From a virus: 34,302 nucleotides of DNA. Below, in pieces: positions 9,778-34,302 of the stretch. Location of the stretch: the IMG/VR virus record IMGVR_UViG_3300031841_001843, positions 1-34,302 of that record. One strand, written 5' to 3'. The notes beneath the pieces were generated by a model. It searched no databases, had not been told where the DNA came from, and worked only from the letters and a program-made list of their open reading frames with translations. Position numbers and translations under genes: made by a program. Position 1 is the first letter of the stretch. Every line of letters begins with the position of its first letter.

Positions 9778-9810
9778 GAGAGAGCAGAGGCCCCTACCCT
9801 CTGCTCTCTC
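9778..9810 (+). terminator. 13-bp hairpin between SSB operon and glycan cluster
   Basis: A perfect 13-bp inverted repeat (arms 9778-9790 and 9798-9810, GAGAGAGCAGAGG and its complement) encloses a 7-nt loop CCCCTAC. The following ACTTATTA is only weakly T-rich. It lies 26 nt after the lipoprotein stop codon and 8 nt before the next ATG, so it most likely ends or attenuates transcription from the replication operon, or stabilises the 5' end of the next transcript. Confidence 0.7.
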
Positions 9811-23550: not shown

Positions 23551-24514
23551 TGATGTCTTACGAAGACTGCGGAATGCAGGCTTACTATCTGAAGAAGTGC
23601 TAGATATGGGCTTTGTTTCGACTGGAAACTACGCCCTCAACAAGATCATTTCTGGTGACTACCAGAAGGGTATTCCCATCGGAATGATTACTCAGTTTCA
23701 TGGCGAAGCGTCAACTGCGAAGACAGTTTTTGCTACGCACATTCTCAAAGAGGCGCAAGCACAAGGGTACTACACCATGCTTGTGGACTCAGAAAATGCT
23801 TACAACCCAGTATTCGCACAGTCACTAGGAATTGATCCTGATAAGCTGATCTATGTTGCACCTGAAACACTTGAAGATTGTTTCAATGTCATGGAGCAGA
23901 CAATCAAAGATATCCGCGAGACTGACAAGGATACGCCAATCATTATTGCATACGATAGTATTGCTGTGTCGCCTTCAAAGGCTGAGTTTGACGCAGAGAA
24001 CTACGATGGAAATAACATGCAGGGTGCAGTAAGAGCTAAGACTACGGGTGCGTGTTTAAGAAAGATCAACCCACTCATGCGTAAGTACAAAGTTGGTCTA
24101 GTAGTGATCAACCAGATACGCAACAAAGTTGGCGTGATGTATGGCGATCCAACCACTATGGCCGCAGGAGGGAACTCATTAGAGTATTACCTCGGCGTAA
24201 ATCTCAAGACGATCTCGAATAAAACTTCTGACCTACTGAAAGATGAAAACAAAAAGATCATCGGGATCAAAGGCACAGTAAGAAACAAAAAGAACAAAGT
24301 GTCTGTGCCATTCAAAGAAGTCCCCTTCAAGTTGATCTATGATGTTGGACTAGATGCGTATGAGGGTCTACTGGAGTGCCTGATGGAAGATGGTCATGTG
24401 ACTAGGAGTGGTGCGTGGTACTCCTATGGTGACACCAAGTTCCAACGCAAGGATCTTGACAACTTTGCAACAGACGAGAAGTTCGCTGACCTCAGAAATT
24501 TTCTAGGGATTTAG
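23543..24514 (+). CDS. RecA/UvsX-like recombinase
   Basis: It forms a filament on single-stranded DNA and carries out strand exchange, working with the ssDNA-binding protein and the Mre11/Rad50-like pair of this window. The 323-aa protein has the RecA fold: STGNYALNKIISGDYQKGIP, a Walker A at residues 54-61 (GEASTAKT, with Ala instead of Gly before the Lys), MLVDSENAY, Walker B IIIAYDSI, the L1-like region, VVINQIRNKVGVMYGDP with the sensor and L2 loop, and AAGGNSLEYY. T4 UvsX also has an unusual P-loop (GPSKSFKS), so the change need not mean lost activity. It resembles UvsX in size. Transcript probably leaderless. Confidence 0.88.
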   Translation: MDDDVLRRLRNAGLLSEEVLDMGFVSTGNYALNKIISGDYQKGIPIGMITQFHGEASTAKTVFATHILKEAQAQGYYTMLVDSENAYNPVFAQSLGIDPDKLIYVAPETLEDCFNVMEQTIKDIRETDKDTPIIIAYDSIAVSPSKAEFDAENYDGNNMQGAVRAKTTGACLRKINPLMRKYKVGLVVINQIRNKVGVMYGDPTTMAAGGNSLEYYLGVNLKTISNKTSDLLKDENKKIIGIKGTVRNKKNKVSVPFKEVPFKLIYDVGLDAYEGLLECLMEDGHVTRSGAWYSYGDTKFQRKDLDNFATDEKFADLRNFLGI

Positions 24515-24516
24515 TC

Positions 24517-24544
24517 TTGCAAATCTCTCAGGGTGTGGTATAAT
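24517..24544 (+). promoter_or_regulatory. Sigma70-type promoter before 24553
   Basis: TTGCAA (24517-24522), a 16-nt spacer ending in TGG (extended -10), and TATAAT (24539-24544). It starts in the 3' flank of the recombinase gene. The ATG at 24553 is 8 nt downstream, so the leader would have at most 1-3 nt. This is one of the stronger promoter matches in the window. Confidence 0.75.
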
Positions 24545-24552
24545 AGGGCACC

Positions 24553-24792
24553 ATGAACGAGAACACCGACAAGAAGGAACTGGAAGCCTGGATCGAGGGG
24601 ATCATCTCTGATGTCTTCAAAGAGGACCCTCTCGACAAGGCTTTCAAAAAATCCGACAAAGTGGTTGCATACGCTTCCATCGAAGAGTATACTAAGGCGA
24701 CTGGCAAGCGGTTCCGAATGCTCAAGGAGCAGAAGGAGCGTGGACTCAGCCGCGAGCAAGCATTCCAAGAAATTTACGGAGGAAACAACTGA
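24553..24792 (+). CDS. Hypothetical charged protein
   Basis: The 79-aa protein is helical and charged, with no family recognised. The middle FKKSDKVVAYASIEEYTKATGKR and the end LSREQAFQEIYGG look like a small folded helical domain. It has no visible Shine-Dalgarno and begins 8 nt after a strong -10, so it is probably translated from a leaderless transcript. The stop codon overlaps the ATG of the DUF932 gene by 1 nt. As first gene of the DUF932 operon it may be a regulator or partner of that protein, but nothing in the sequence proves it. Confidence 0.6.
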   Translation: MNENTDKKELEAWIEGIISDVFKEDPLDKAFKKSDKVVAYASIEEYTKATGKRFRMLKEQKERGLSREQAFQEIYGGNN

Positions 24793-25583
24793 TGGTTATC
24801 TACAACGAAGAACTACTGCGTACCAAGGCTCCTGCGGTCTTTTCTCAATCGCACCGAGACCTGTCTAACCGATACGAATTCCTGCCCACCACCGAGGTCA
24901 TCGAGGTGCTACAGGAAGAGGGCTGGCGTGCTTACAGCGCCCAGCAAGTAAACCCTCGCAAGTGGAAGAGGGAACACGCCAAGCACATTATTCGCTTCCG
25001 CAAAGAGGGTGATGTGCGTGACCGACACACCGAAGTCGGTGAAACTATTCCTGAGCTTCTGCTCATGAACTCCCACAACGGAACTGCTGGCTACCGTCTG
25101 CAAGGTGGTATTTTCCGTCTCGTCTGCTCTAACGGTCTTGTGATCTCGGATGTTGACTACGGTAAGATCCACATTCGTCACCGCAGGGGTGAGATGATGA
25201 AGGACCAGCTTATTGCTGCCAGCCGCAATATCTCTAAGAGCACCGCTAAGGCTGCTGAGGTCATGGACGAGTGGCAGACTATTAACCTTACTGATCGTCA
25301 GGCGAAGGATTATGCTGCTGATGCTGCCAAGATCCGCTGGAAGGATGGTGCAGATGATGGTCTGATTCAGAATCTGCTCAATGTTCGCCGTGTGGAGGAC
25401 CAAAACAAAGACCTGTGGACCACTTTCAATGTGGTGCAGGAGAACCTCATCCGAGGGGGTTTTGTGAATCAGAGGACTCGTCGCCAAGTGCGAGCTATCA
25501 ACAACATCCAAAAAGATGTGGATTATAACTCACAACTTTGGGAACTGACGAGTACATATGGTAAGGAACTCGCTCTGAACTGA
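24792..25583 (+). CDS. DUF932-family phage/plasmid protein
   Basis: The 263-aa protein matches the DUF932 family found in phages and plasmids. Characteristic features are WRAYSAQQVNPRKWKREHAKHIIRFR, the central ELLLMNSHNGTAGYRLQGGIFRLVCSNGLV (about 88-117) and a helical C-terminal half. The molecular function is unknown. Codons look highly biased toward GC-ending choices, as in the ssDNA-binding protein gene, which suggests high expression. GGAGG nine nt before the ATG is a strong ribosome site. It is followed by the 10-bp hairpin at 25590, which probably ends the operon. Confidence 0.85.
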   Translation: MVIYNEELLRTKAPAVFSQSHRDLSNRYEFLPTTEVIEVLQEEGWRAYSAQQVNPRKWKREHAKHIIRFRKEGDVRDRHTEVGETIPELLLMNSHNGTAGYRLQGGIFRLVCSNGLVISDVDYGKIHIRHRRGEMMKDQLIAASRNISKSTAKAAEVMDEWQTINLTDRQAKDYAADAAKIRWKDGADDGLIQNLLNVRRVEDQNKDLWTTFNVVQENLIRGGFVNQRTRRQVRAINNIQKDVDYNSQLWELTSTYGKELALN

Positions 25584-25589
25584 GCATCT

Positions 25590-25613
25590 CAGGAGGGGCG
25601 AAAGCCCCTCCTG
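25590..25613 (+). terminator. 10-bp GC-rich hairpin with GAAA loop
   Basis: Perfect inverted repeat CAGGAGGGGC / GCCCCTCCTG (25590-25599 and 25604-25613) closed by a GAAA tetraloop, seven nt after the DUF932 stop codon. The following TCATATTTA is a weak T-tract. Shape and position fit an intrinsic terminator or a 3'-end stabilising hairpin. Confidence 0.8.
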
Positions 25614-25624
25614 TCATATTTACA

Positions 25625-25990
25625 ATGATGCAAGGCGAATTTAGGGAACCTCTAAGCACAGACGAACGAGGTTTTTACATCACGATTGCTCAGATGCAGT
25701 TTTATCTGAATCGTGATACTAAGCGTAAGATCAAAGAGGATTTTTCGCTTGAAAGTGATCCTGATTTCTACAAGTATTACCTGAACTGTTGCATGTACAA
25801 CACAGTATACGATATGACAGAAGAGGATCCTGAATGTGCCCTTCTCTATTGGGATCATAATCTTGAGTGTGTGTCTGTTACATTTCCAACTCATGGAAAA
25901 GTTGCCAAGCGCATTTCCACCCTTAACCTAGAGGAAGAAGATGATGATTTTGAATGGGATGAGGAAGATGATTTTGGTTTATTTGAATAA
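25625..25990 (+). CDS. Hypothetical protein with acidic C-terminus
   Basis: The 121-aa protein has no recognised family. It contains YYLNCCMYNTVYDMTEEDPECALLYW and ends in a strongly acidic, aromatic tail (EEEDDDFEWDEEDDFGLFE). That tail is similar in style to the ends of the lipoprotein at 9198 and the ssDNA-binding protein, which suggests protein or DNA mimicry, or binding to a basic partner. The next gene encodes a very basic protein. The start is two tandem ATGs; a CATATT that could serve as a weak -10 lies 4-7 nt before them. It overlaps the following gene by 1 nt. Confidence 0.55.
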   Translation: MMQGEFREPLSTDERGFYITIAQMQFYLNRDTKRKIKEDFSLESDPDFYKYYLNCCMYNTVYDMTEEDPECALLYWDHNLECVSVTFPTHGKVAKRISTLNLEEEDDDFEWDEEDDFGLFE

Positions 25991-26181
25991 TGGGAAAGAC
26001 CTATCGGAGAGATTCAGACCATTGGCCTAAGCAGCAGCGCAGAGCAAAGCGTAGGAATAACAAGAATAAGAGTAAAGAATTCTCTTCTTCTCGCTATAAT
26101 ACATCAGAGGATTACGCTGACATGAGCTATGTGTCGGAGTATTCCGATTTTGAGCGATTTGATCGCAAGAAGAAACAATGA
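25990..26181 (+). CDS. Hypothetical small basic protein
   Basis: The 63-aa protein is rich in Arg, Lys, Asn and Ser in its first half (KQQRRAKRRNNKNKSK) and rich in Tyr, Ser, Glu and Asp in the second (TSEDYADMSYVSEYSDFERF). This is a disordered, nucleic-acid-binding-like composition. It overlaps the acidic gene before it by 1 nt (TAATG) and the next small gene by 4 nt. A charge-based pair with the acidic protein encoded just upstream is possible but not shown. No family recognised. Confidence 0.55.
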   Translation: MGKTYRRDSDHWPKQQRRAKRRNNKNKSKEFSSSRYNTSEDYADMSYVSEYSDFERFDRKKKQ

Positions 26182-26300
26182 TGGACAGTCAAGAATTTGA
26201 TATTGAGTTCGCTGGGATGGTATTCACAGCAGAAGAATTCAAGGAAATGTGTTCTTGGTACATAGATAAATATGTGGAGGATCGTAAAGATGCCCAGTAA
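26178..26300 (+). CDS. Hypothetical 40-aa protein
   Basis: A short frame starting at tandem ATGs (26178 and 26181) in an ATGA overlap with the previous gene, ending in TAA at 26298-26300. The peptide reads MMDSQEFDIEFAGMVF, then TAEEFKEMCSWYIDKY and a charged end. The composition (one compact amphipathic helix after a strand) looks coding. Its last codons contain GGAGG, the ribosome site for the gene at 26290. No homology recognised. Confidence 0.45.
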   Translation: MMDSQEFDIEFAGMVFTAEEFKEMCSWYIDKYVEDRKDAQ

Positions 26301-26628
26301 CTATGTCCCCAAGAACGATATCATGGGTCCTACTAGGATTCAGAGAATCGCTAAGAAGCTTATCGAGGAGGCAGGAGAGGATCGTAAGTTAGCGTTAGAC
26401 GCTCACAGATTCTTTAGAGCCATGGTGGATGAGAACCCTCAGGATGCCGCAGCAAAGGGCCTGATGGTTGATGCACTTAAAGTTGCTCAAGCCTCGAAGA
26501 ATAATGTAGTCAAAATCATGGGCCTGATGATTAAGTTGCAGGACCAAGGTGTAGAAAAGACTAAAGCTTCTGGTAGCGGTAAAGAAAATTCTATTTTCTC
26601 TGAGTTGGATAACATGATCAATGACTGA
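26290..26628 (+). CDS. Hypothetical helical phage protein
   Basis: The 112-aa protein is helical: RIQRIAKKLIEEAGEDRKLAL, then AHRFFRAMVDENPQDAAAKGLM and ALKVAQASKNNVVKIMGLMIK. The pattern resembles some small phage terminase subunits and other helical phage proteins in which ALK-AQ-SK-NVVKL follows an NPQD segment, but this is uncertain. GGAGG nine nt before the ATG at 26290 decides the start over an in-frame ATG at 26272. It overlaps the Clp-like gene by 8 nt, so the two probably act together. Confidence 0.55.
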   Translation: MPSNYVPKNDIMGPTRIQRIAKKLIEEAGEDRKLALDAHRFFRAMVDENPQDAAAKGLMVDALKVAQASKNNVVKIMGLMIKLQDQGVEKTKASGSGKENSIFSELDNMIND

Positions 26629-27946
26629 AAAGAAAACTTATAAGATTGTAAACCACGAACTAAACCTCATTCTTCAAGTTCGTGGGTTGGACTTAAGCAA
26701 AGAACGATCTCTGTACAACACTATTAAGCAGAGAATCAGTCAGGCTGATGAGCCTGTCAATGTGGGTGAATACAAGGAGTTCTTGGTTAGGAAACTTATT
26801 GTAGATGGTGATGCTTTCGTAGATGATTTCATGGAGAAAGATGGTGACATCGAGATCCTTGATTCTGTTTACGAAAGCATCATCACACTCTACCCTCCCT
26901 TCGCTCTCGATTTTGTCTGCTCAGATCTAAATGCCCAGACATTCTTTGCAGATGAGAACAATGAGATTCTCAATAACCTGAGAAAGACCATCAAGGAGAA
27001 GCTAGGGACCGAGGAGAATAGCTACATGCTCTCCTCTATTGATGATATCAACAATCTGGAGAAGTACCTCAAGGACAATATCATAGGCCAGAGAGACGCC
27101 ATAGAGGCCGTTGTGAAGGCTTTGAAGCTAATGGCCTCTGGGCTCACAGGGCACGCCTCGTTCCTGTTCGTGGGGCCTACAGGCGTTGGTAAGACCGAGT
27201 TGGCGAAGCTGCTAGGTGAGCAGTTCAGCGGTAACTTTATGAAAGTGAACTGCGCTGAGTATGCACACGCACATGAATATGCCAAGCTTATCGGATCTCC
27301 CCCAGGATACATCGGACACACAGAGAAGAGTCTCCTGGCTGAGAAAGCTGAGAAATCCAATCGTTGGGTCTTCCTGTTCGATGAGATTGAAAAGGCTCAC
27401 CACAAGTTCTATGATTTCCTTCTATCGGTTCTGGACGATGGCACTTGCACCGATAACATGGGAACCGTGTTAGACTTTAGCCAGTCTATCTTCATCTTCA
27501 CATCTAACCAAGGACTCACAGAAGTAAAGCGTGACCCTGTGGGCTTTGGTAAGAAGGATGAAGTAGACGAGAAAGTAACCTCTGAGGTTATCCGAAAGTC
27601 TATCAAGCGACACTTTAGTCCTGAGTTCCTTAACCGTATTGATGATCTGGTTCTGTTCCAAGCCCTTACCAGAAAGGAAGTGCGAAAGATCGCAGAGCTA
27701 CAATTAGAGGAGTTACCTATTCAGAGAACTAGCCCTCTTATTGATTACATCATTGATCATGGCTACTCACAAGAGTATGGAGCCAGAAACATTAAACGCT
27801 TCATCAAGAACAATATCGCAGACAAAGTTGCGGATTGTATTTTGAAGCAGCTTGTGCCGAAAGAAGAGGGGGCTTATTACTTCCCCCGCGTGACCAAGGC
27901 TGGTGTTAAAATCGTGAACACTAGAAAATATCAGGTTTCCGCCTGA
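26621..27946 (+). CDS. Single-ring Clp-like AAA+ ATPase
   Basis: The 441-aa protein carries one AAA+ module of the ClpA/ClpB D2 type: LKDNIIGQRDAIEAVVKALK (start of the domain), Walker A GPTGVGKT (about 185-192), SPPGYIGH pore-loop region, Walker B VFLFDEIEKAHH (about 251), sensor 1 FIFTSNQG, FSPEFLNRID with the arginine finger (about 335) and sensor 2 YGARNIKR (about 386). The first 130 residues are unlike ClpA or ClpX N-domains. There is no clear protease-docking tail and no clpP nearby, so it may be an unfoldase or remodelling factor, possibly acting on host ClpP. The TGA stop overlaps a -35-like element for the tRNA region. Confidence 0.88.
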   Translation: MTEKKTYKIVNHELNLILQVRGLDLSKERSLYNTIKQRISQADEPVNVGEYKEFLVRKLIVDGDAFVDDFMEKDGDIEILDSVYESIITLYPPFALDFVCSDLNAQTFFADENNEILNNLRKTIKEKLGTEENSYMLSSIDDINNLEKYLKDNIIGQRDAIEAVVKALKLMASGLTGHASFLFVGPTGVGKTELAKLLGEQFSGNFMKVNCAEYAHAHEYAKLIGSPPGYIGHTEKSLLAEKAEKSNRWVFLFDEIEKAHHKFYDFLLSVLDDGTCTDNMGTVLDFSQSIFIFTSNQGLTEVKRDPVGFGKKDEVDEKVTSEVIRKSIKRHFSPEFLNRIDDLVLFQALTRKEVRKIAELQLEELPIQRTSPLIDYIIDHGYSQEYGARNIKRFIKNNIADKVADCILKQLVPKEEGAYYFPRVTKAGVKIVNTRKYQVSA

Positions 27947-27970
27947 CAATCTAGGCCAGTTTGGTATTAT
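27943..27970 (+). promoter_or_regulatory. Sigma70-type promoter overlapping the Clp-like gene stop
   Basis: CTGACA (27943-27948, containing the TGA stop), a 16-nt spacer ending in TGG, and TATTAT (27965-27970). The likely start is near 27976, and it abuts the hairpin that follows. It probably drives the tRNA region or a short RNA. Confidence 0.6.
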
Positions 27971-27971
27971 A

Positions 27972-28028
27972 GAGTGAGGAGAAGCCCGAGGTAACGACGG
28001 CTGACAGAACGCATCTCCTCGCTCTTTT
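27972..28028 (+). terminator. Hairpin with T-tract before the tRNAs, possible short RNA
   Basis: Arms 27972-27982 and 28014-28024 (GAGTGAGGAGA with TCTCCTCGCTC, one G-U pair) are followed at once by TTTTA. The 31-nt loop contains a second small stem (AGCC 27983-27986 with GGCT 27999-28002). For transcripts coming through the Clp-like gene this is an intrinsic terminator. From the promoter just upstream it would give a roughly 50-nt RNA whose own 5' end lies in the stem. Confidence 0.6.
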
Positions 28029-28038
28029 ATAGACCTAT

Positions 28039-28114
28039 CCTCCAGTAACTCAGGGGTCAGAGTGGCGTTCTTATAAAGCGTAAGTCGGTGGTTCGATTCC
28101 ACCCTGGAGGACCA
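28039..28114 (+). tRNA. tRNA-Ile(UAU)
   Basis: A full 76-nt cloverleaf: acceptor CCTCCAG/CTGGAGG, D-stem ACTC/GAGT, anticodon stem GCGTT/AGCGT (two G-U pairs) with loop CTTATAA giving anticodon UAU, T-stem GGTGG/CCACC with TTCGATT, discriminator A and encoded CCA. Anticodon UAU reads AUA directly. Most bacteria use a lysidine-modified CAU tRNA for that codon, so this tRNA would bypass that modification. Confidence 0.9.
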
Positions 28115-28115
28115 T

Positions 28116-28202
28116 GGCTGAGTGGCGGAATCGGTATACGCATCAGACTTAAAATCTGACGCCCAGTAGGGCTTACGAGTTCGAGTCTCGTCTCAGCTAC
28201 CA
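28116..28202 (+). tRNA. tRNA-Leu(UAA)
   Basis: An 87-nt class II tRNA: acceptor GGCTGAG/CTCAGCT (first pair G-U), anticodon stem TCAGA/TCTGA with loop CTTAAAA giving UAA, a long variable arm (CGCCCAGTAGGGCTT region) and T-loop TTCGAGT, with encoded CCA. It starts one base after the tRNA-Ile CCA, so both are likely cut from one transcript. It reads UUA/UUG codons. Confidence 0.93.
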
Positions 28203-28214
28203 TACAACTTCGAC

Positions 28215-28220
28215 TATAAT
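28215..28220 (+). promoter_or_regulatory. -10 element 5 nt before a 35-codon gene
   Basis: CTATAATAAGTTATG puts TATAAT exactly 5 nt before the ATG at 28226, just after tRNA-Leu. No -35 and no Shine-Dalgarno are visible. The same 15 bases precede the HAD gene at 17466. Confidence 0.55.
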
Positions 28221-28225
28221 AAGTT

Positions 28226-28333
28226 ATGTGTCAAGCATGTGAAATTATTATGACTGCTCCTGCAAAGCTTGCAGTTTTTACTCCCTTCGTCGCTTACTGC
28301 GGCTGGTCTATCAAATCTCGATTCTCGAAATAG
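28226..28333 (+). CDS. Hypothetical 35-aa peptide between tRNAs
   Basis: A short frame from ATG at 28226 to TAG at 28331-28333. The peptide starts MCQACEIIM and then has a hydrophobic stretch APAKLAVFTPFVAYCGW before a basic end SIKSRFSK, which suggests a single membrane segment with positive flank. An internal ATG at 28250 is a second possible start. The closeness of the -10 element supports expression from a leaderless transcript. No family recognised. Confidence 0.45.
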   Translation: MCQACEIIMTAPAKLAVFTPFVAYCGWSIKSRFSK

Positions 28334-28337
28334 AACT

Positions 28338-28496
28338 ATGAAAAATCTTACTAAACTTTGTTATTTCGCTGGTTACGCCAGCATCCCTCTTTCTGTCCTT
28401 ACTTACTTTCAGCAGGAGCCTCTAGCTGGAATTTTTATCGGACTCTGGGTTCCTACCCTTCTCCTCTCTGGTATGATTGCCAGGGAAGCTAAGTGA
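28338..28496 (+). CDS. Small two-helix membrane protein
   Basis: The 52-aa protein has two hydrophobic segments: LCYFAGYASIPLSVLTYF (about residues 7-24) and AGIFIGLWVPTLLLSGMI (about 30-47), with a basic end REAK. Start at ATG 28338; an upstream in-frame TTG at 28269 is less likely. It lies between tRNA-Leu and tRNA-Asn, 4 nt after the previous small gene, so the two form a pair of membrane peptides. Size and topology would suit a small holin-like or membrane-modifying peptide, but there is no other support. Confidence 0.55.
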   Translation: MKNLTKLCYFAGYASIPLSVLTYFQQEPLAGIFIGLWVPTLLLSGMIAREAK

Positions 28497-28502
28497 CAAA
28501 AA

Positions 28503-28577
<75 letters not shown>

Positions 28578-28578
28578 C

Positions 28579-28655
28579 GCACCCATAGCTCAATTGGATA
28601 GAGCAACAGACTTCTAATCTGTAGGTTTCAGGTTCAAGTCCTGATGGGTGTACCA
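28579..28655 (+). tRNA. tRNA-Arg(UCU)
   Basis: A 77-nt cloverleaf: acceptor GCACCCA/TGGGTGT (first pair G-U), D-stem GCTC/GAGC, anticodon stem ACAGA/TCTGT with loop CTTCTAA giving UCU, T-stem TCAGG/CCTGA with TTCAAGT, discriminator A and encoded CCA. It reads AGA/AGG, codons common in the AT-richer genes of this phage. Confidence 0.94.
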
Positions 28656-28709
28656 TACAACATGACAGTCTTGTAATATGCTGTGTGTCCCATGTAGGGT
28701 ACATACAGT

Positions 28710-29528
28710 ATGAGAAAATTACTCGCTTCATTATTACTACTCGCGCCTGTTACGCAGGCAGATGTCATCACTACTGATGGCGCACTCATTGAAAACCAGA
28801 TATTCTATACAGGTCTTCAAGTAAGAGCCCACAATGTAACCATTCGTAATTGCACTATCGATATAGGACCTTTTGCTCCTAACTGGTATGCAGTCACTAA
28901 TGTTTATAGTGATGATAATGGCATCCCACTTGCAACCAACTTCCGTCTAGAAAACTGCACAATTCGTGGTGGTACAACGGGCGTTTATGTCCAACATGCT
29001 ACCGTCATGAACTGTGATATACAGGAGACTGGTAAGGATGCTATCAAAATTGCTAGTCGTGGACATTGTATGATCCGCAATAATTATGTGGCTCGTATTG
29101 GTCTACAGGCTGGAGCCCATGCTGATGCCTTGCAAGCTGTTGGTGGTAGTCATGTTTTCGTTATAGGAAACCACTTTGATATCCCTGTCAGTTTTGCTGA
29201 TGCCAATGGTTATCTCAGCAACGCTTGTATCATTCTACAATCTCAAGTCGCAGAGATTCATGACTGGTACATCTGGGGCAATACTTTTGAGGGAGGTAGT
29301 TACACGATCTACATTAAGGACAAAGATCATCCTAACTACCCTGGCATTCAGCCCCCTTACAGGATTCGTATGAACGCTAATACCTTTGGTACTGACTATC
29401 GCTATGGTATTGCTTCAATCGACATGGCACCCACTATCCAGATTAACTTCAATATGTGGGAGGATGGAACGCCTATGGATACTGGTCAATGGGATATCAA
29501 CACTTGGGACAACTGGCCCCAATGGTAA
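28710..29528 (+). CDS. Exported right-handed beta-helix protein
   Basis: The 272-aa protein starts with a cleavable-type signal peptide (MRKLLASLLLLAPVTQA, likely cut before Asp18). The rest has the repeating short strands and Asn/Gly turns of a right-handed beta-helix: VTIRNCTID, FRLENCTIRGG, ATVMNCDIQETG, CMIRNNYVAR and VFVIGNHFD, each repeat about 20-25 residues. AGAHADALQAVGG resembles the active-site face of pectate-lyase-like enzymes, but catalytic residues cannot be fixed. Phage beta-helices are usually tail spikes; a signal peptide instead means export from the infected cell. It ends in a tryptophan-rich tail. Confidence 0.78.
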   Translation: MRKLLASLLLLAPVTQADVITTDGALIENQIFYTGLQVRAHNVTIRNCTIDIGPFAPNWYAVTNVYSDDNGIPLATNFRLENCTIRGGTTGVYVQHATVMNCDIQETGKDAIKIASRGHCMIRNNYVARIGLQAGAHADALQAVGGSHVFVIGNHFDIPVSFADANGYLSNACIILQSQVAEIHDWYIWGNTFEGGSYTIYIKDKDHPNYPGIQPPYRIRMNANTFGTDYRYGIASIDMAPTIQINFNMWEDGTPMDTGQWDINTWDNWPQW

Positions 29529-29529
29529 T

Positions 29530-29976
29530 ATGGCAACACAAGAGAGACTAGACGAAACTTACATGGCGATGGCAGAGAAGCTGTCAGAGCTTTCTCACGC
29601 AAAGCGTTCAAAGGTTGGCGCACTCATAGTTAAAGACACGCACATTATTGCAGAAGGATACAATGGAACACCTGCTGGTTTTGATAACAACTGCGAGTAT
29701 ATTGATTATGTGGACCACATGCGAACTAAGCGCGAGGTGCTACACGCAGAATCAAATGCTATTGCAAAAATTGCTAAATCGACAAATAGCTCTCTTGGTG
29801 CTACTTTATATGTCACTCTGGCTCCCTGTCTTGATTGCGCTAAGTTAATCATTCAGGCAGGGATTGCTAGGGTGGTATACAAAAATCCCTACCATTCCAC
29901 AGGCACTTGGCTATGTGAGCAGGCAGGGATTGAGGTTACGCGCCTCGATCATAACGATCCTGGCGAAGAGTGTTGA
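29530..29976 (+). CDS. dCMP deaminase
   Basis: The 148-aa protein converts dCMP to dUMP, the substrate of ThyX. It has HAESNA (H72, E74) and APCLDC (C100, C103) as the zinc site and catalytic Glu, and GYNGTPAGFDN and SHAKRSKVGALI typical of dCMP deaminases. The start at 29530 follows the beta-helix stop by one nt and is preferred over an upstream in-frame ATG within that gene. Its last 41 nt overlap the end of the minus-strand gene, so the two converge tail to tail without a visible terminator. Confidence 0.87.
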   Translation: MATQERLDETYMAMAEKLSELSHAKRSKVGALIVKDTHIIAEGYNGTPAGFDNNCEYIDYVDHMRTKREVLHAESNAIAKIAKSTNSSLGATLYVTLAPCLDCAKLIIQAGIARVVYKNPYHSTGTWLCEQAGIEVTRLDHNDPGEEC

Positions 29977-30448
29977 ATGGGGTGATGTTGCCATAGGTTA
30001 TTTCTATGGTGATATCACCTGTTGTTGCTTGGAAGGGGTGATCTTCAACTTTTATATTAACAGAGTCCATGATCGCTCCGTTATCACATTTAAATTCAGC
30101 GACCCCTGGAGTGTTGACGGCAGCAAAAACACACTGCCCAAACACGCCTGACACATTCCCTGCTGCGATTTCAGCGGTAGTGTACTCCTGAGCAATATTA
30201 GGATCACCTACCATGCTGAACGCAGTTAGCTGATTAGGTCCACTAGGTTCGATCCAAGCAAGAGCATGATCTTTCTCTCCCCCTGTTTGAGAACCACCAT
30301 AATCATAATGCACTATGACCTTAGCATAGTTGCATTTGATTCTTCCACCTGACGAGTCCACAAAGGGAAAGCCAGAAGCTTCTGTTCCAGGGGCTACAGA
30401 AGAGACAGCGTAAGAATAAGTTCTTTCACCAGCAACGAGATCCATCAT
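29936..30448 (-). CDS. Hypothetical minus-strand protein, possibly structural
   Basis: The 170-aa protein has a beta-rich, glycine/aspartate-rich composition (TYSYAVSSVAPGTEASGFPF, VIVHYDYGGSQTGGE, ITIEITYGNITPF) with two cysteines. It lacks a signal peptide. Such composition is common in phage virion proteins, but I recognise no family. It is the last gene of a minus-strand group of three, starting 1 nt after the stop of the DUF6321 gene. The opening M-M pair gives two adjacent start choices. Its 3' end overlaps the dCMP deaminase gene. Confidence 0.6.
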   Translation of the reverse strand: MMDLVAGERTYSYAVSSVAPGTEASGFPFVDSSGGRIKCNYAKVIVHYDYGGSQTGGEKDHALAWIEPSGPNQLTAFSMVGDPNIAQEYTTAEIAAGNVSGVFGQCVFAAVNTPGVAEFKCDNGAIMDSVNIKVEDHPFQATTGDITIEITYGNITPFNTLRQDRYDRGA

Positions 30449-30449
30449 A

Positions 30450-30935
30450 TCAGCAGTTCCACTTACGAAGTGCCTTGTTTATGCGTGAATCAGGATCATT
30501 CGCAGTCTTGGCACTCGTAAGTCTTTTCTTCATCCCGCCCATACGGGCACAGAATGATTTCCTACGCTTGGCTGATTTAGATCCTTTTTTAAGCTTGCTA
30601 GGCTTGGTAGTAACAGCAGTCTTGAGCTTAGAACCTGGGTTGGCCGCACGATAGCGAGCAACACCTTTTGCAGTCAGACCACCAGCAGCAGACTTATCAC
30701 CACTCTTGACAGAGAACTTTTTGGGCATGGTGCCTTTTCTACCTTCAATAAGCACATCAGCCACATCAAGATAAGCTGAACAAATAGCCTCTTGAACTTT
30801 CTTGCTTTTGTTTCCCCAGTTAGCAGCACCTTTGCGTCTACACTTTACTAAAGCACCAGAAGCGTAAGCGGAGGGCCACACGCTGTAGCGTGCTTTAACT
30901 TTGTGATAGCAGGCGTCTTTCTTTTCGTTAATCAT
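30450..30935 (-). CDS. DUF6321-domain phage protein
   Basis: The 161-aa basic protein ends in a conserved module: GGLTAKGVARYRAANPGSKL (about residues 85-104), KRRKSFCARMGGMK and a final RINKALRKWNC. This is the DUF6321 pattern known from marine phages and some giant viruses. The N-terminal half has ACYHKVKARYSVWPSAYAS and a second cysteine-containing basic stretch KCRRKGAANWG, another recurring viral module. Very basic, so it may bind nucleic acid or be packaged in the virion. It overlaps the upstream gene by 4 nt (ATGA). Confidence 0.75.
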   Translation of the reverse strand: MINEKKDACYHKVKARYSVWPSAYASGALVKCRRKGAANWGNKSKKVQEAICSAYLDVADVLIEGRKGTMPKKFSVKSGDKSAAGGLTAKGVARYRAANPGSKLKTAVTTKPSKLKKGSKSAKRRKSFCARMGGMKKRLTSAKTANDPDSRINKALRKWNC

Positions 30936-31351
30936 TTTGATTTACTCTTACTAGGCTTGTCTGTTGAAACATATGTAGGCTTGGCAGCCCCTGTTTTAAA
31001 TCTTTGATTTGGATCGGCGCGTCTCTTGCGTGCTTGTGCTGATCGTCTTTGTGCAGGAGTCATGGAAGCTCTTTTAGCAGATGACACACACTTAGGAGTG
31101 GACTTTTGCCCAGGTTGGCGAGCGCAAGGTTTACCAGATACAACTTGTACCCACCCAGGCTTGCCTCCTTTGGATCTAGAGTTCTTAAACCAAGCGTGGA
31201 GACCTTCTTCAGAGATTCGTCTTAGGTTTTCACTAAGTCTCTTCTTTTTCTTAACACAGTTAGGGTAACGCTTTCCGAACATGGTTTTCATGCCCTTCTT
31301 CTCGTACCCAGGCCAACACTTCTCCACTAATCTGTCGATTCTTCTTGACAT
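30932..31351 (-). CDS. DUF5872-domain phage protein
   Basis: The 139-aa, highly basic protein has the conserved stretch GLHAWFKNSRSKGGKPGW (about residues 49-66), then GKPCARQPGQKSTPKC and AKRASMTPAQRRSAQARKRR, and ends in PTYVSTDKPSKSKSK. This is the DUF5872 pattern, often encoded next to DUF6321 in marine phages and giant viruses. The N-terminus CWPGYEKKGMKTMFGKRYPN is part of the same viral protein type. It begins the minus-strand operon, and its ATG lies within the -35 of the divergent promoter at 31345. Confidence 0.78.
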   Translation of the reverse strand: MSRRIDRLVEKCWPGYEKKGMKTMFGKRYPNCVKKKKRLSENLRRISEEGLHAWFKNSRSKGGKPGWVQVVSGKPCARQPGQKSTPKCVSSAKRASMTPAQRRSAQARKRRADPNQRFKTGAAKPTYVSTDKPSKSKSK

Positions 31352-31373
31352 CTGACCACTCTTCTGGTATTAT
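31345..31373 (+). promoter_or_regulatory. Sigma70-type promoter, possibly bidirectional
   Basis: Plus strand: TTGACA (31345-31350), 17-nt spacer ending in TGG, TATTAT (31368-31373); the ATG at 31381 is 7 nt downstream. On the minus strand the same region gives TATAAT (complement of 31369-31374), 17 nt before the DUF5872 ATG, though without a good -35. Divergent transcription may start from overlapping -10 elements. Confidence 0.75.
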
Positions 31374-31380
31374 ATAGCCC

Positions 31381-31917
31381 ATGAACATCTTCTTCCTTGC
31401 AAAAAACCCGCGAGTTTGCGCCGAGTGGCATTGTGACCAGCATTGTAGCAAAATGATCATCGAGTACGCTCAACTCATGTCCACGGCTCATCGTGTGACT
31501 GAGAGTCCGTATGCTGATCAAGTTTACAAGATCGCTCACAAGAATCACCCCAGCACTATTTGGACTCGCGCATCTTACGACCACTATGCGTGGCTTTACG
31601 AACTGTGGCGTGAGCTTAATAACGAGTTCTACAAGCGTCGAGGGAAGCATCACCTTTCTTGGAGCAAGCTTGGGCATGTCCTGTGTTTCACTCCTCCTGC
31701 CCTTCCTGCTGCTGGTTGGGTTGATCCTCCTCAATGTATGCCTGACTACCTCAAGGGTGACGAATGTGTAGAGGCTTATCGTAGGTTCTACTGTCAGGAA
31801 AAGCGTAAGTTTGCCACTTGGAACTGGGGCAGCCCCAAGCCTATGTGGTGGGATTGGGACGAGTACAACGAAGAAGATCAGACTTTGATGGTGATTGCTG
31901 AGGGGGGACAGGTATAA
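31381..31917 (+). CDS. Conserved phage protein of unknown function
   Basis: The 178-aa protein starts MNIFFLAKNPRVCAEWHCDQ and continues HCSKMIIEYAQLMSTAHRV. This opening (MNIF-L, a CAE-HCD-H-KM-E-AQLLSTAH pattern) recurs in many phage proteins that I know only as hypothetical. Later it has HKNHPSTIWTRASYDHYAWL and EAYRRFYCQEKRKFATWNW. The many conserved His, Cys, Glu and Trp residues suggest an enzyme, perhaps acting on DNA; some relatives are labelled DNA glycosylases, but no active site is evident. Its start is 7 nt after a strong -10, so the mRNA is probably leaderless. Confidence 0.75.
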   Translation: MNIFFLAKNPRVCAEWHCDQHCSKMIIEYAQLMSTAHRVTESPYADQVYKIAHKNHPSTIWTRASYDHYAWLYELWRELNNEFYKRRGKHHLSWSKLGHVLCFTPPALPAAGWVDPPQCMPDYLKGDECVEAYRRFYCQEKRKFATWNWGSPKPMWWDWDEYNEEDQTLMVIAEGGQV

Positions 31918-31918
31918 T
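31913..31918 (+). promoter_or_regulatory. -10 element 5 nt before the DUF3310 gene
   Basis: GGTATAATATACCATGAG places TATAAT exactly 5 nt before the ATG at 31924, with no good -35. It overlaps the stop of the previous gene (TAA at 31915-31917). The bases form a partial palindrome GGTATAATATACC. Confidence 0.55.
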
Positions 31919-31923
31919 ATACC

Positions 31924-32283
31924 ATGAGTGACTACTTCGATGTGTATGACAACGAAGCTATGAAGGCTAACGCCAATTATAGCTACAAGAACCCTCCTAC
32001 GATTTATGATCGTATGAGCCAAAAAGTTTACAAGTCTCACGAAAGCTTCTCTGAGCCTGACATGGTAAACCATCCTGATCATTACACAGCAGGGGGTGTG
32101 GAAACTCTTGATGTTATTGAGGCTAAACTGAGCCAGAGTGAGTTTCAGGGATACTGCCTGGGTAACATCCTTAAATACCTCATGCGCGCAGGCTACAAAG
32201 GCAAGCAGCTAGAGGATCTCAAGAAAGCACAGTTTTACCTTAACAGAATGATTGATAGTTATGAAAGTTCAGATCACTCTTGA
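31924..32283 (+). CDS. DUF3310-family phage protein
   Basis: The 119-aa protein has the DUF3310 core in its second half: VNHPDHYTAGGVETLDVIEAK, then YCLGNILKYLMRAGYKG and LEDLKKAQFYLNRMI. Members are sometimes called SaV-like or nucleotide-kinase-like, but their function is not established. The first 45 residues are polar and variable. The start at 31924 sits 5 nt after a -10 element with no Shine-Dalgarno. The last 23 nt overlap the following small gene. Confidence 0.85.
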   Translation: MSDYFDVYDNEAMKANANYSYKNPPTIYDRMSQKVYKSHESFSEPDMVNHPDHYTAGGVETLDVIEAKLSQSEFQGYCLGNILKYLMRAGYKGKQLEDLKKAQFYLNRMIDSYESSDHS

Positions 32284-32431
32284 GTGGGATGTCGCACAGA
32301 CAGACATCAAAGAAGCAAAGAAGTTTGTCGATGAGCGTGAGTGGCTATGGGATAGTGATCCAATGACAGCCATTCACTTCATGAACCAGATTTGTTTTCC
32401 TGACATGATTCACAGAGCGGTCAAAGCATGA
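32261..32431 (+). CDS. Hypothetical 56-aa protein
   Basis: The frame from ATG 32261 to TGA 32429-32431 encodes an acidic small protein: MKVQITLEWDVAQTDIKEAK, then EWLWDSDPMTAIHFMNQICF and a basic end HRAVKA. It overlaps the DUF3310 gene by 23 nt and the next gene by 4 nt (ATGA), a packing that supports coding. No family recognised. Confidence 0.6.
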   Translation: MKVQITLEWDVAQTDIKEAKKFVDEREWLWDSDPMTAIHFMNQICFPDMIHRAVKA

Positions 32432-32634
32432 GAATTCTAAACGATCACAATGGAAACATTGATGGTTCTGTTATCCTGTCCTGTTGGGATGCAGATCTTA
32501 TCGCTGAGGCTCTCGTCAGTCTTATTGGAGATATTCCTGAAGAACATCCTGATCTTGATGTAGCAGCAAGGCTACATAATCAGATGCTATCTCTTTTTGA
32601 TGCATTAGAGAAGGATGAGTTACGAGGCAATTGA
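32428..32634 (+). CDS. Hypothetical 68-aa protein
   Basis: A small acidic, helical protein. The segment SVILSCWDADLIAEALVSLI and the end RLHNQMLSLFDALEKDELRG suggest a helical bundle. The start is in an ATGA overlap with the preceding gene and the end overlaps the next by 20 nt. No family recognised. Confidence 0.55.
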   Translation: MRILNDHNGNIDGSVILSCWDADLIAEALVSLIGDIPEEHPDLDVAARLHNQMLSLFDALEKDELRGN

Positions 32635-32839
32635 CGGATGTTTATCCCCAAGCGGGACTTTACTTTACATATACCAAAATGATTTAAGTGCTGGTGCTTC
32701 GGCACTACCAACAACATTACAAACCGAACTAGACGAATGGCAAGGGTACAGAAACATCGCAGCCGCAAAGCAAAACGAGACTGACAGTTACTGTACAATG
32801 GCGTGGATCTACAAACAATGGAAGGATGGTAATACCTGA
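32615..32839 (+). CDS. Hypothetical 74-aa protein
   Basis: Small protein with the segments SPSGTLLYIYQNDLSAG and QTELDEWQGYRNIAAAKQNE followed by a tryptophan-containing tail MAWIYKQWKDG. The start (ATG 32615) overlaps the previous gene, and its TGA overlaps the next ATG by 1 nt. No family recognised. Confidence 0.5.
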   Translation: MSYEAIDGCLSPSGTLLYIYQNDLSAGASALPTTLQTELDEWQGYRNIAAAKQNETDSYCTMAWIYKQWKDGNT

Positions 32840-33039
32840 TGACTCTACAAGAAAAAAGAAAAGAACTGGAAAAGAGACTCGAATACGCAGAGAAAGCCCA
32901 CATGGCATTTGCTAAGGGTATTGGAAGTGAAGGTGCGTATCGAGAGAGCTACCAAAGGGTTCGTGAAGTTCGTGATGAACTGTATATGGTAGCTATGGAG
33001 TTGGGAGACCCTATCCCTTTCCGCATGGAACCTAAGTAA
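32839..33039 (+). CDS. Hypothetical coiled-coil protein
   Basis: The 66-aa protein is almost wholly helical and charged: TLQEKRKELEKRLEYAEKAH, then a second helix RESYQRVREVRDELYMVAME. This suggests a helical hairpin or a dimer. It ends in PFRMEPK. The start overlaps the previous stop by 1 nt (TGATG). No family recognised. Confidence 0.55.
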   Translation: MTLQEKRKELEKRLEYAEKAHMAFAKGIGSEGAYRESYQRVREVRDELYMVAMELGDPIPFRMEPK

Positions 33040-33059
33040 ATACATTAGGAGGTATTGAT

Positions 33060-33245
33060 ATGAAGAAACTTGTAATGGCTCTTACTGGTCTTGTTGTTCT
33101 CTCTTCTTGTGTCTTTGCCCCTGGTGACAGACCTTGCAAATGTGAGGCACACAAAATGCACCAGGGACCACAGAAAGGCATGATGAAGCCTGGGCAGTTC
33201 AAAGGTCCTAAGAAGATTTCCGAGATGAAAAAGCAGCACGGCTGA
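33060..33245 (+). CDS. Short predicted lipoprotein
   Basis: The 61-aa protein has a lipoprotein signal: MKK, hydrophobic LVMALTGLVVL and lipobox LSSC with the lipidated cysteine at about residue 17. The mature part is basic and rich in Lys, Met, His and Pro, with a short CKCEAH motif that might bind metal. AGGAGGT eight nt before the ATG is a near-perfect ribosome site. Size and type would allow an outer-membrane spanin or superinfection-exclusion lipoprotein, but the partner is not seen. It is the last gene before the hairpin-rich region at 33260-33330. Confidence 0.7.
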   Translation: MKKLVMALTGLVVLSSCVFAPGDRPCKCEAHKMHQGPQKGMMKPGQFKGPKKISEMKKQHG

Positions 33246-33327
33246 AATTTGTAAAGCTCGCGTGTGTGCGGGGTAGCCGTTTTCTAAAGACACCTGAAAC
33301 GGTCAGGTCCCAAGTGGGCCGAAAATT

Positions 33328-33358
33328 CAAGATCCAGCTTGACAAGGGCTGGATCTTG
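33328..33358. repeat. 11-bp inverted repeat around a -35 element (operator candidate)
   Basis: CAAGATCCAGC (33328-33338) and its exact complement GCTGGATCTTG (33348-33358) enclose nine bases, TTGACAAGG, that hold the -35 hexamer of the sigma-factor promoter. A dimeric repressor bound here would block the polymerase. It could also act as an RNA hairpin in read-through transcripts. Confidence 0.7.
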
Positions 33359-33367
33359 TGCTATAAT
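33339..33367 (+). promoter_or_regulatory. Consensus sigma70 promoter of the sigma-factor gene
   Basis: TTGACA (33339-33344), 17-nt spacer ending in TGC (extended -10), TATAAT (33362-33367). Both hexamers match the sigma70 consensus exactly. The ATG at 33374 is 6 nt downstream. The 33246-33327 region before it holds only weak hairpins (CCGTTT/AAACGG around 33277-33302) and no gene. Confidence 0.85.
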
Positions 33368-33373
33368 AGGGGC

Positions 33374-33931
33374 ATGAACGATCAGCAACTCCAGCTTATT
33401 CAGAAGAAGTACGGCAACCTCATCCACAAGATCGGCCACTCTATTTCGGGTGATGTAGCGATCTGTGACCATGATGATAATACGCAAGATCTATGGATCG
33501 CAGTCATGGATGCTATTCGTGGCTATGAGCGTAAGGAGGGCAAGCCTTTTGAGCAGTTCTGTAACGATAAGGGCTTTGACAAGTATCTCAAGACTTGCTT
33601 GTGGAACCTCAAGAACAGTAAAGGCGCTAGGCTTACCAAGCGACAGAACATCAATCGTGATGCCATGCCTATTGATTCCAACGAAGAGATTATCCATGTC
33701 GAAGACAACTCTGTGAATGAGAGCTACTTTGATATGTTCTTTGATGATCTCCCCTCGTCCCTTTCTGATGATGAGCGTAACATTATTCGCAGCCTAGTCG
33801 ATAGCCCTGATTTTGTGTGCGAGAATGGGAGGATTAACATCAAGGCTTTGTCTAGCAAGCTGAACAAGGGGTGGGGCACCACTCGTAAGATTGTAGACCG
33901 CATCGGTGAGAAAATCAAGAATAACCTTTGA
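33374..33931 (+). CDS. Sigma-factor-like protein, candidate late sigma (gp55-like)
   Basis: The 185-aa protein resembles a minimal sigma-70 family member; T4 gp55 has the same length. Residues about 36-75 (DDNTQDLWIAVMDAIRGYER, then FEQFCNDKGFDKYLKTCLWN) look like region 2, which binds core polymerase and reads the -10 element. KGARLTKRQNIN follows. The C-terminal ERNIIRSLVDSPDF and NIKALSSKLNKGWGTTRKIVDRI suggest a region 4-like helix-turn-helix. Start at 33374, directly after a consensus promoter; an in-frame ATG at 33266 would place the promoter inside the gene. It could direct late promoters such as those with TATAATA and no -35. Confidence 0.65.
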   Translation: MNDQQLQLIQKKYGNLIHKIGHSISGDVAICDHDDNTQDLWIAVMDAIRGYERKEGKPFEQFCNDKGFDKYLKTCLWNLKNSKGARLTKRQNINRDAMPIDSNEEIIHVEDNSVNESYFDMFFDDLPSSLSDDERNIIRSLVDSPDFVCENGRINIKALSSKLNKGWGTTRKIVDRIGEKIKNNL

Positions 33932-33956
33932 CATTGACCAAGGAGTGTGATATAAT
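33928..33956 (+). promoter_or_regulatory. Consensus sigma70 promoter before the last gene
   Basis: TTGACA (33928-33933, overlapping the stop of the sigma-like gene), 17-nt spacer ending in TGA, TATAAT (33951-33956). The ATG at 33964 lies 7 nt downstream, so a leaderless transcript is likely. Confidence 0.82.
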
Positions 33957-33963
33957 GGTATCC

Positions 33964-34302
33964 ATGCAACAGCAAGAAGAAGACATCATGAACAACCCCG
34001 CGCCTGAGCGTAGTCACATCTGGGATCTGGAAGCTAACCTTGATTTCGCTGCCAGCTTCGACCTGAACCAAGAGTTCAAATATCGTATGGTCAACCTGAT
34101 GAAGACTGACCGAATTCAACTCAAGGTTCTGAATCGCTGTGAGGATCTTTATAACCTTGTGATGGATCGCAACGAGCAAGATTACGATGGTCGCATGACT
34201 GGCTACGATTGTGCTACTGCTCTGTTTGATGTGCTGGGACATCGTTGGCCTGATGATGATTTTAGCGATCAGAAGACTGGCACTATTCTTGAGTGGCTTG
34301 CT
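33964..34302 (+). CDS. Hypothetical protein, cut by the window end
   Basis: An open frame of 113 codons runs from ATG 33964 to the end of the window. The protein is acidic and helical: SHIWDLEANLDFAASFDLNQ, then FKYRMVNLMKTDRIQLKVLN and DYDGRMTGYDCATALFDVLG. No family recognised. A second ATG at 33988 is an alternative start, but it lacks a clear Shine-Dalgarno. It is driven by the consensus promoter at 33928. Confidence 0.65.
   Translation, partial: MQQQEEDIMNNPAPERSHIWDLEANLDFAASFDLNQEFKYRMVNLMKTDRIQLKVLNRCEDLYNLVMDRNEQDYDGRMTGYDCATALFDVLGHRWPDDDFSDQKTGTILEWLA

Follow-up and report, generated by a model that had tools for sequence, protein, structure and literature searches.

A putative terminator hairpin superimposed on the -35 element of a predicted leaderless phage promoter

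What is the role of a perfect inverted repeat that lies squarely over the -35 element of a consensus promoter? The question is raised by positions 33328-33374 of the window, by which we mean the whole stretch of 34,302 nucleotides analyzed here, an IMG/VR record of 34.3 kb with 44% G+C. On the plus strand, an 11-nt 5′ arm CAAGATCCAGC (33328..33338) and an 11-nt 3′ arm GCTGGATCTTG (33348..33358) enclose the 9-nt loop TTGACAAGG, and the first six bases of that loop are the -35 hexamer TTGACA (33339..33344). The arms are 100% complementary (11/11 pairs across 33328-33358), as the earlier note had described. The 3′ arm falls inside the promoter spacer, is followed by TGCTAT, a weak U-tract, and leads to the -10 hexamer TATAAT (33362..33367), which has a TG one base upstream (extended -10). 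The consensus hexamers and good spacing claimed for this promoter were likewise confirmed, with 12 of 12 hexamer bases and a spacer of 17 nt; only two 12/12 sites exist within 24000-34302. With TTGACA, 17 bp, TATAAT and an ATG at 33374, 6 nt past the -10, the site has every feature of a sigma-70 type promoter with a predicted leaderless start. Since a start approximately 7 nt after the -10 would place the first transcribed base at the ATG, the mRNA of the sigma-like gene downstream is predicted to be leaderless; the start site itself, and use of the host primary sigma factor, we infer. RNA reading through from upstream has no well-spaced Shine-Dalgarno sequence ahead of ATG 33374 (an AGGGG ends one base before it), and expression of the sigma-like gene should therefore depend on the gene's own promoter.

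The window encodes SbcCD-like proteins, a ribonucleotide reductase, a DnaB-like helicase, glycosyltransferases and four tRNAs, the last being the only matches in an Rfam search of the window. Many IMG/VR contigs carry a helicase about 80% identical to that of the window; among named records the best matches, at about 31-35%, come from SPO1-like phages of Bacillus and relatives. The phage is uncultured and, judging from related contigs, probably marine. The sigma-like gene (33374..33931, + strand, 185 aa) has homologues on 16 IMG/VR contigs. A Sigma70_r2 domain is weakly detected in all 14 homologues examined, the window protein itself scoring under the Pfam cut-off, and its structural model (pLDDT 70, pTM 0.39) gives fold matches headed by sigma factors, at E of about 0.01 and low TM-scores. 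The protein had no match in PHROG, and no relative was found in the phages collection or, as an alignment, in genome_contigs. Upstream lies a co-directional gene (33060..33245, + strand, 61 aa) with its own Shine-Dalgarno-like AGGAGG and a homologous gene in L360. This contig and two others, L358 and L359, are close syntenic relatives found via gene 31381 (91, 83 and 80% identical in that protein for L358, L359 and L360). In all three, this sigma gene is absent from the syntenic place, and a 32-33% identical sigma-like gene is carried about 1 kb upstream of the junction, directly behind another gene that by eye resembles DUF3310, which looks like an exchange of sigma genes. Upstream of the junction, the three also share with the window a conserved non-coding stretch, GCGTGTGTGCGNGGTAGC with flanks (33254-33284), which has no Rfam match and folds no better than its shuffles. 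Elsewhere in the window, a perfect inverted repeat of about 13 nt, GAGAGAGCAGAGG ... CCTCTGCTCTCTC (9778-9810), falls between a TATAAT-like site and ATG 9818, possibly in the leader of that gene.

The promoter is one of a class. The pattern TTGACA-(15-19)-TATAAT-(4-9)-ATG has 20 matches in 8 of the 16 contigs with sigma-like homologues, and the reversed promoter pattern has none in those 16 contigs; the members in the window are at 24517, 31345, 33339 and 33928. The last of these (33928..33956, + strand) is a second consensus leaderless promoter, without a dyad, which serves the gene at ATG 33964 (or in-frame 33955), and the TGA stop codon of the sigma-like gene (33929-33931) sits within its TTGACA. 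Near-consensus promoters with a -10 ending 6-8 nt before the ATG are numerous, for example in the window, L107, L116 and other relatives, and leaderless mRNAs are predicted for many genes of these phages. At 10 of 33 promoters of the group (including window 33929-33931 and L111) and at 42 of 193 in a wider sample, the preceding gene has as its stop codon the TGA contained in TTGACA. The same holds for the sigma promoters of L087, L090, L093 and L094, which have no dyad; the position of the stop codon there leaves no non-coding room for a 5′ arm. A dyad common to all promoters of the sigma-bearing group was considered and rejected, the majority being without it. A short TCAAG-N6-CTTGA motif occurs at a few promoters (window, L083, L090, L093) and may be due to chance.

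Dyads centered on the -35 nevertheless recur. In a wider IMG/VR sample, in which leaderless consensus promoters were chosen only by their hexamers and ATG distance and not for dyads, 8 of 104 promoters have one, where 200 shuffles gave 1.26 on average and 4 at most. In the sigma-bearing group the count is 4 of 49 (shuffle mean 0.19). Such dyads are found at the sigma gene of L098/L116, with the identical loop TTGACAAGG and different arms; at the gene before sigma in L100; at another gene in L115; and, with one mismatch, in L091. The arm sequences differ between phages. When the center is shifted elsewhere in a pooled set, fewer dyads are obtained, although almost as many are seen over the -10, which is nearly its own complement; part of the pooled set comes from a scan that selected for TTGACAAGG, and the wider sample is the cleaner test. 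The exact arms of the window, around a different loop, recur in a single further phage type, represented by five near-identical contigs, where the element stands between convergent genes, just past a stop codon, and is followed by TTTTGC; no promoter was found there. That element fits a terminator, and a recurrence seen once independently could be chance.

Our favored explanation, which we consider probable, is a compact terminator-promoter overlap in which a terminator-kind RNA hairpin of upstream transcription is superimposed on the promoter of the next gene. As RNA, the dyad is predicted to fold into a stable hairpin of 13 bp (two inner U.G pairs) with loop GACAA, at -20.4 kcal/mol (z = -5.8), and it lies behind a co-directional gene, 33060..33245; both features are expected of an intrinsic terminator. 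Less in keeping with one, the hairpin is 82 nt away from the stop of that gene, the tail TGCTATAAT is a poor U-tract, TGCTAT having 3 T in 6, and the hairpin was not among the sites listed by a simple terminator scan of the window; given this tail, the expectation that termination occurs in the window derives from the wider class. The hairpin would belong to transcription arriving from the upstream gene, with the -35 serving as its loop and the 17-bp spacer made up of the 3′ arm and the bases behind it. Polymerase from upstream would be stopped or released at the hairpin, fully or partly, which would end or insulate upstream transcription and shield the strong downstream promoter from being run over. 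A new polymerase would then initiate at the same spot and produce a leaderless mRNA starting at or beside the ATG.

One alternative, proposed in the earlier note, is an operator, where a dimeric phage or host repressor binds both arms, covers the -35 and thereby switches the sigma-like gene. A perfect two-fold symmetric dyad overlapping the -35 of a 12/12 promoter is what such a switch would present, and L359 retains a dyad over the same promoter position. The L359 junction reads AGAAGACCCAGC-TTGACACAG-GCTGGGTCTTCT-GC-TACTAT-ACACAC-ATG, with 82% identity to the window over 45 nt and its hairpin 6 nt past a stop codon. Two of the 11 pairs are changed on both sides, in a compensatory manner, and 11 of 11 pairs are retained; sliding the pairing partners by 1-3 columns lowers pairing to 50% or less. 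This covariation, which upholds the earlier idea that the arms are functional, comes from two sequences only, the window and L359, for which a shuffle control (140/500) is powerless; we estimate the chance that two random changes per arm meet both partner and complement at about 1 in 500. A fixed DNA-binding protein is expected to hold the sequence of its half-sites, whereas a hairpin needs pairing only, and the half-sites change symmetrically in L359 and differ in L098. Moreover, the gene behind the L359 dyad-promoter is not a sigma gene but the homologue of window gene 33964, with 67% identity, so the element is not bound to sigma control. The counterparts of this gene in L358 and L360 are preceded by a -10-like TACTAT at equal ATG distance and lack a dyad. 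The earlier note had also looked to further copies of the arm as a sign of an operator, and had named a promoter conserved in relatives without its arms as grounds for abandoning the idea. Within the window, the arm recurs 11 times with up to two mismatches, against 11.25 expected; the record holds a single copy of the dyad, and an exact 31-mer search of IMG/VR gave zero matches. The sigma-like homologues of L087, L089, L090, L093 and L094 have a near-consensus leaderless promoter and no dyad.

Gene context bears on the operator as well. After one hand correction, a co-directional gene precedes every one of the 21 non-redundant dyad promoters, compared with 198 of 266 promoters without a dyad (68 not co-directional; p = 0.003, or p = 0.02 at the uncorrected 20 to 1). 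The correction concerns the window's own context, where a spurious minus-strand ORF had been taken instead of gene 33060-33245. Once corrected, the set has no dyad promoter in a divergent context, a restriction that a terminator would explain and an operator would not. A cruder measure, an RNA-fold count of helices across the -35, gave no contrast between co-directional and divergent promoters. Taken with the different gene served in L359 and the variation of the arms between phages, the restriction to co-directional contexts makes a repressor switch dedicated to the sigma gene unlikely.

A second alternative retains the RNA hairpin and gives it another job, as a 3′-end cap or stabilizer of the upstream mRNA or as a processing site, without termination itself. 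Co-directional contexts suit this too, as does the combination of a strong hairpin with a poor U-tract, which L098 has in common with the window. Across the class, however, T is enriched immediately behind the 3′ arm (3.10 of 6 nt versus 2.31, with 0 of 5000 resamplings as high), and clear T-tracts are present in several members; the elements of L138, L170, L115/L284 and L400 appear as plain intrinsic terminators with TTGACA in the loop. Counting against a terminator, the dyads of L136 and L181 are AT-rich and not terminator-like. We regard a hairpin that does not terminate as quite doubtful. In L400 (9871-9905), the TGA of the -35 in the hairpin loop is the stop codon of the upstream gene, and TTTTTT and TATAAT follow; the gene downstream is, by eye, similar to an ssDNA-binding protein.

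Perfect 11-bp dyads with loops of 0-20 are expected about 0.3 times per window under a first-order Markov model, and two are present, so an 11-bp dyad alone is not rare in the window and its exact centering on a consensus -35 is the unusual part. That an incidental inverted repeat merely fell on the -35 is very improbable given this centering, the enrichment across phages and the compensatory changes in L359. Promoters formed by single-strand hairpins, of the phage N4 and F plasmid type, were set aside, the window site being a normal duplex consensus promoter. The GACAA loop is reminiscent of an antiterminator boxB loop; this reading was rejected, as TTGACAA accounts for the loop without an antiterminator.

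If the terminator-promoter overlap is correct, many uncultured phages would use a space-saving junction in which the signals for the end of one gene and the start of the next share bases. Symmetry at a promoter would, in that case, frequently point to a terminator instead of a repressor site, with consequences for the prediction of phage regulation from sequence. A bolder extension, and a long shot in our estimation, is that this is a recurrent two-in-one element of environmental phages, in which the next, leaderless promoter uses the terminator loop as its -35 and can take up the released polymerase by recycling, so that the end of one early unit would be coupled to the start of the next. The junction, if it works in the proposed way, would also provide a natural layout for testing coupled termination and reinitiation. 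A search of the open-access literature on phage promoters overlapping terminators, which is weak evidence of absence, gave no description of -35-as-loop terminators as a recurrent phage element.

Several known systems invite comparison. The stoperator 13-mer of Cluster A mycobacteriophages contains TTGACA; its consensus has no match at the dyad within 3 mismatches, and this candidate was rejected. Allowing up to 3 mismatches, the window has 29 matches to CTTGACAKCCACC against 14.8 expected, with 0 of 100 shuffles as high; these loose matches include 10402, 31344 and 33927, and none is at the dyad. Cluster A operators and stoperators are asymmetric 13-mers that bind a monomer and occur repeatedly along the genome (PMC9283540); they too are sites at promoters and in short intergenic gaps, whereas the present site is a single symmetric dyad. 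In Deinococcus-Thermus, -10 regions adjoin start codons and give leaderless mRNA (PMC12340547). The phage promoters likewise have a -10 directly ahead of the ATG and a predicted leaderless mRNA, but they belong to phages, and a consensus -35 is also present. Closest in form is the intrinsic (Rho-independent) terminator, with which the element shares a GC-containing hairpin behind a co-directional gene and, in many class members, a T-rich tail. It differs in that the next promoter takes its -35 from the loop and has the 3′ arm and tail within its spacer, and in the weak U-tract of the window. In bacteria, terminators often lie close to promoters. Near a terminator, bacterial RNA polymerase is able to initiate again, with recycling where terminators adjoin promoters (PMC11347151). 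The sites there are neighbors, whereas here the bases of the two proposed signals coincide; as in that system, termination beside a promoter could hand the polymerase to that promoter.
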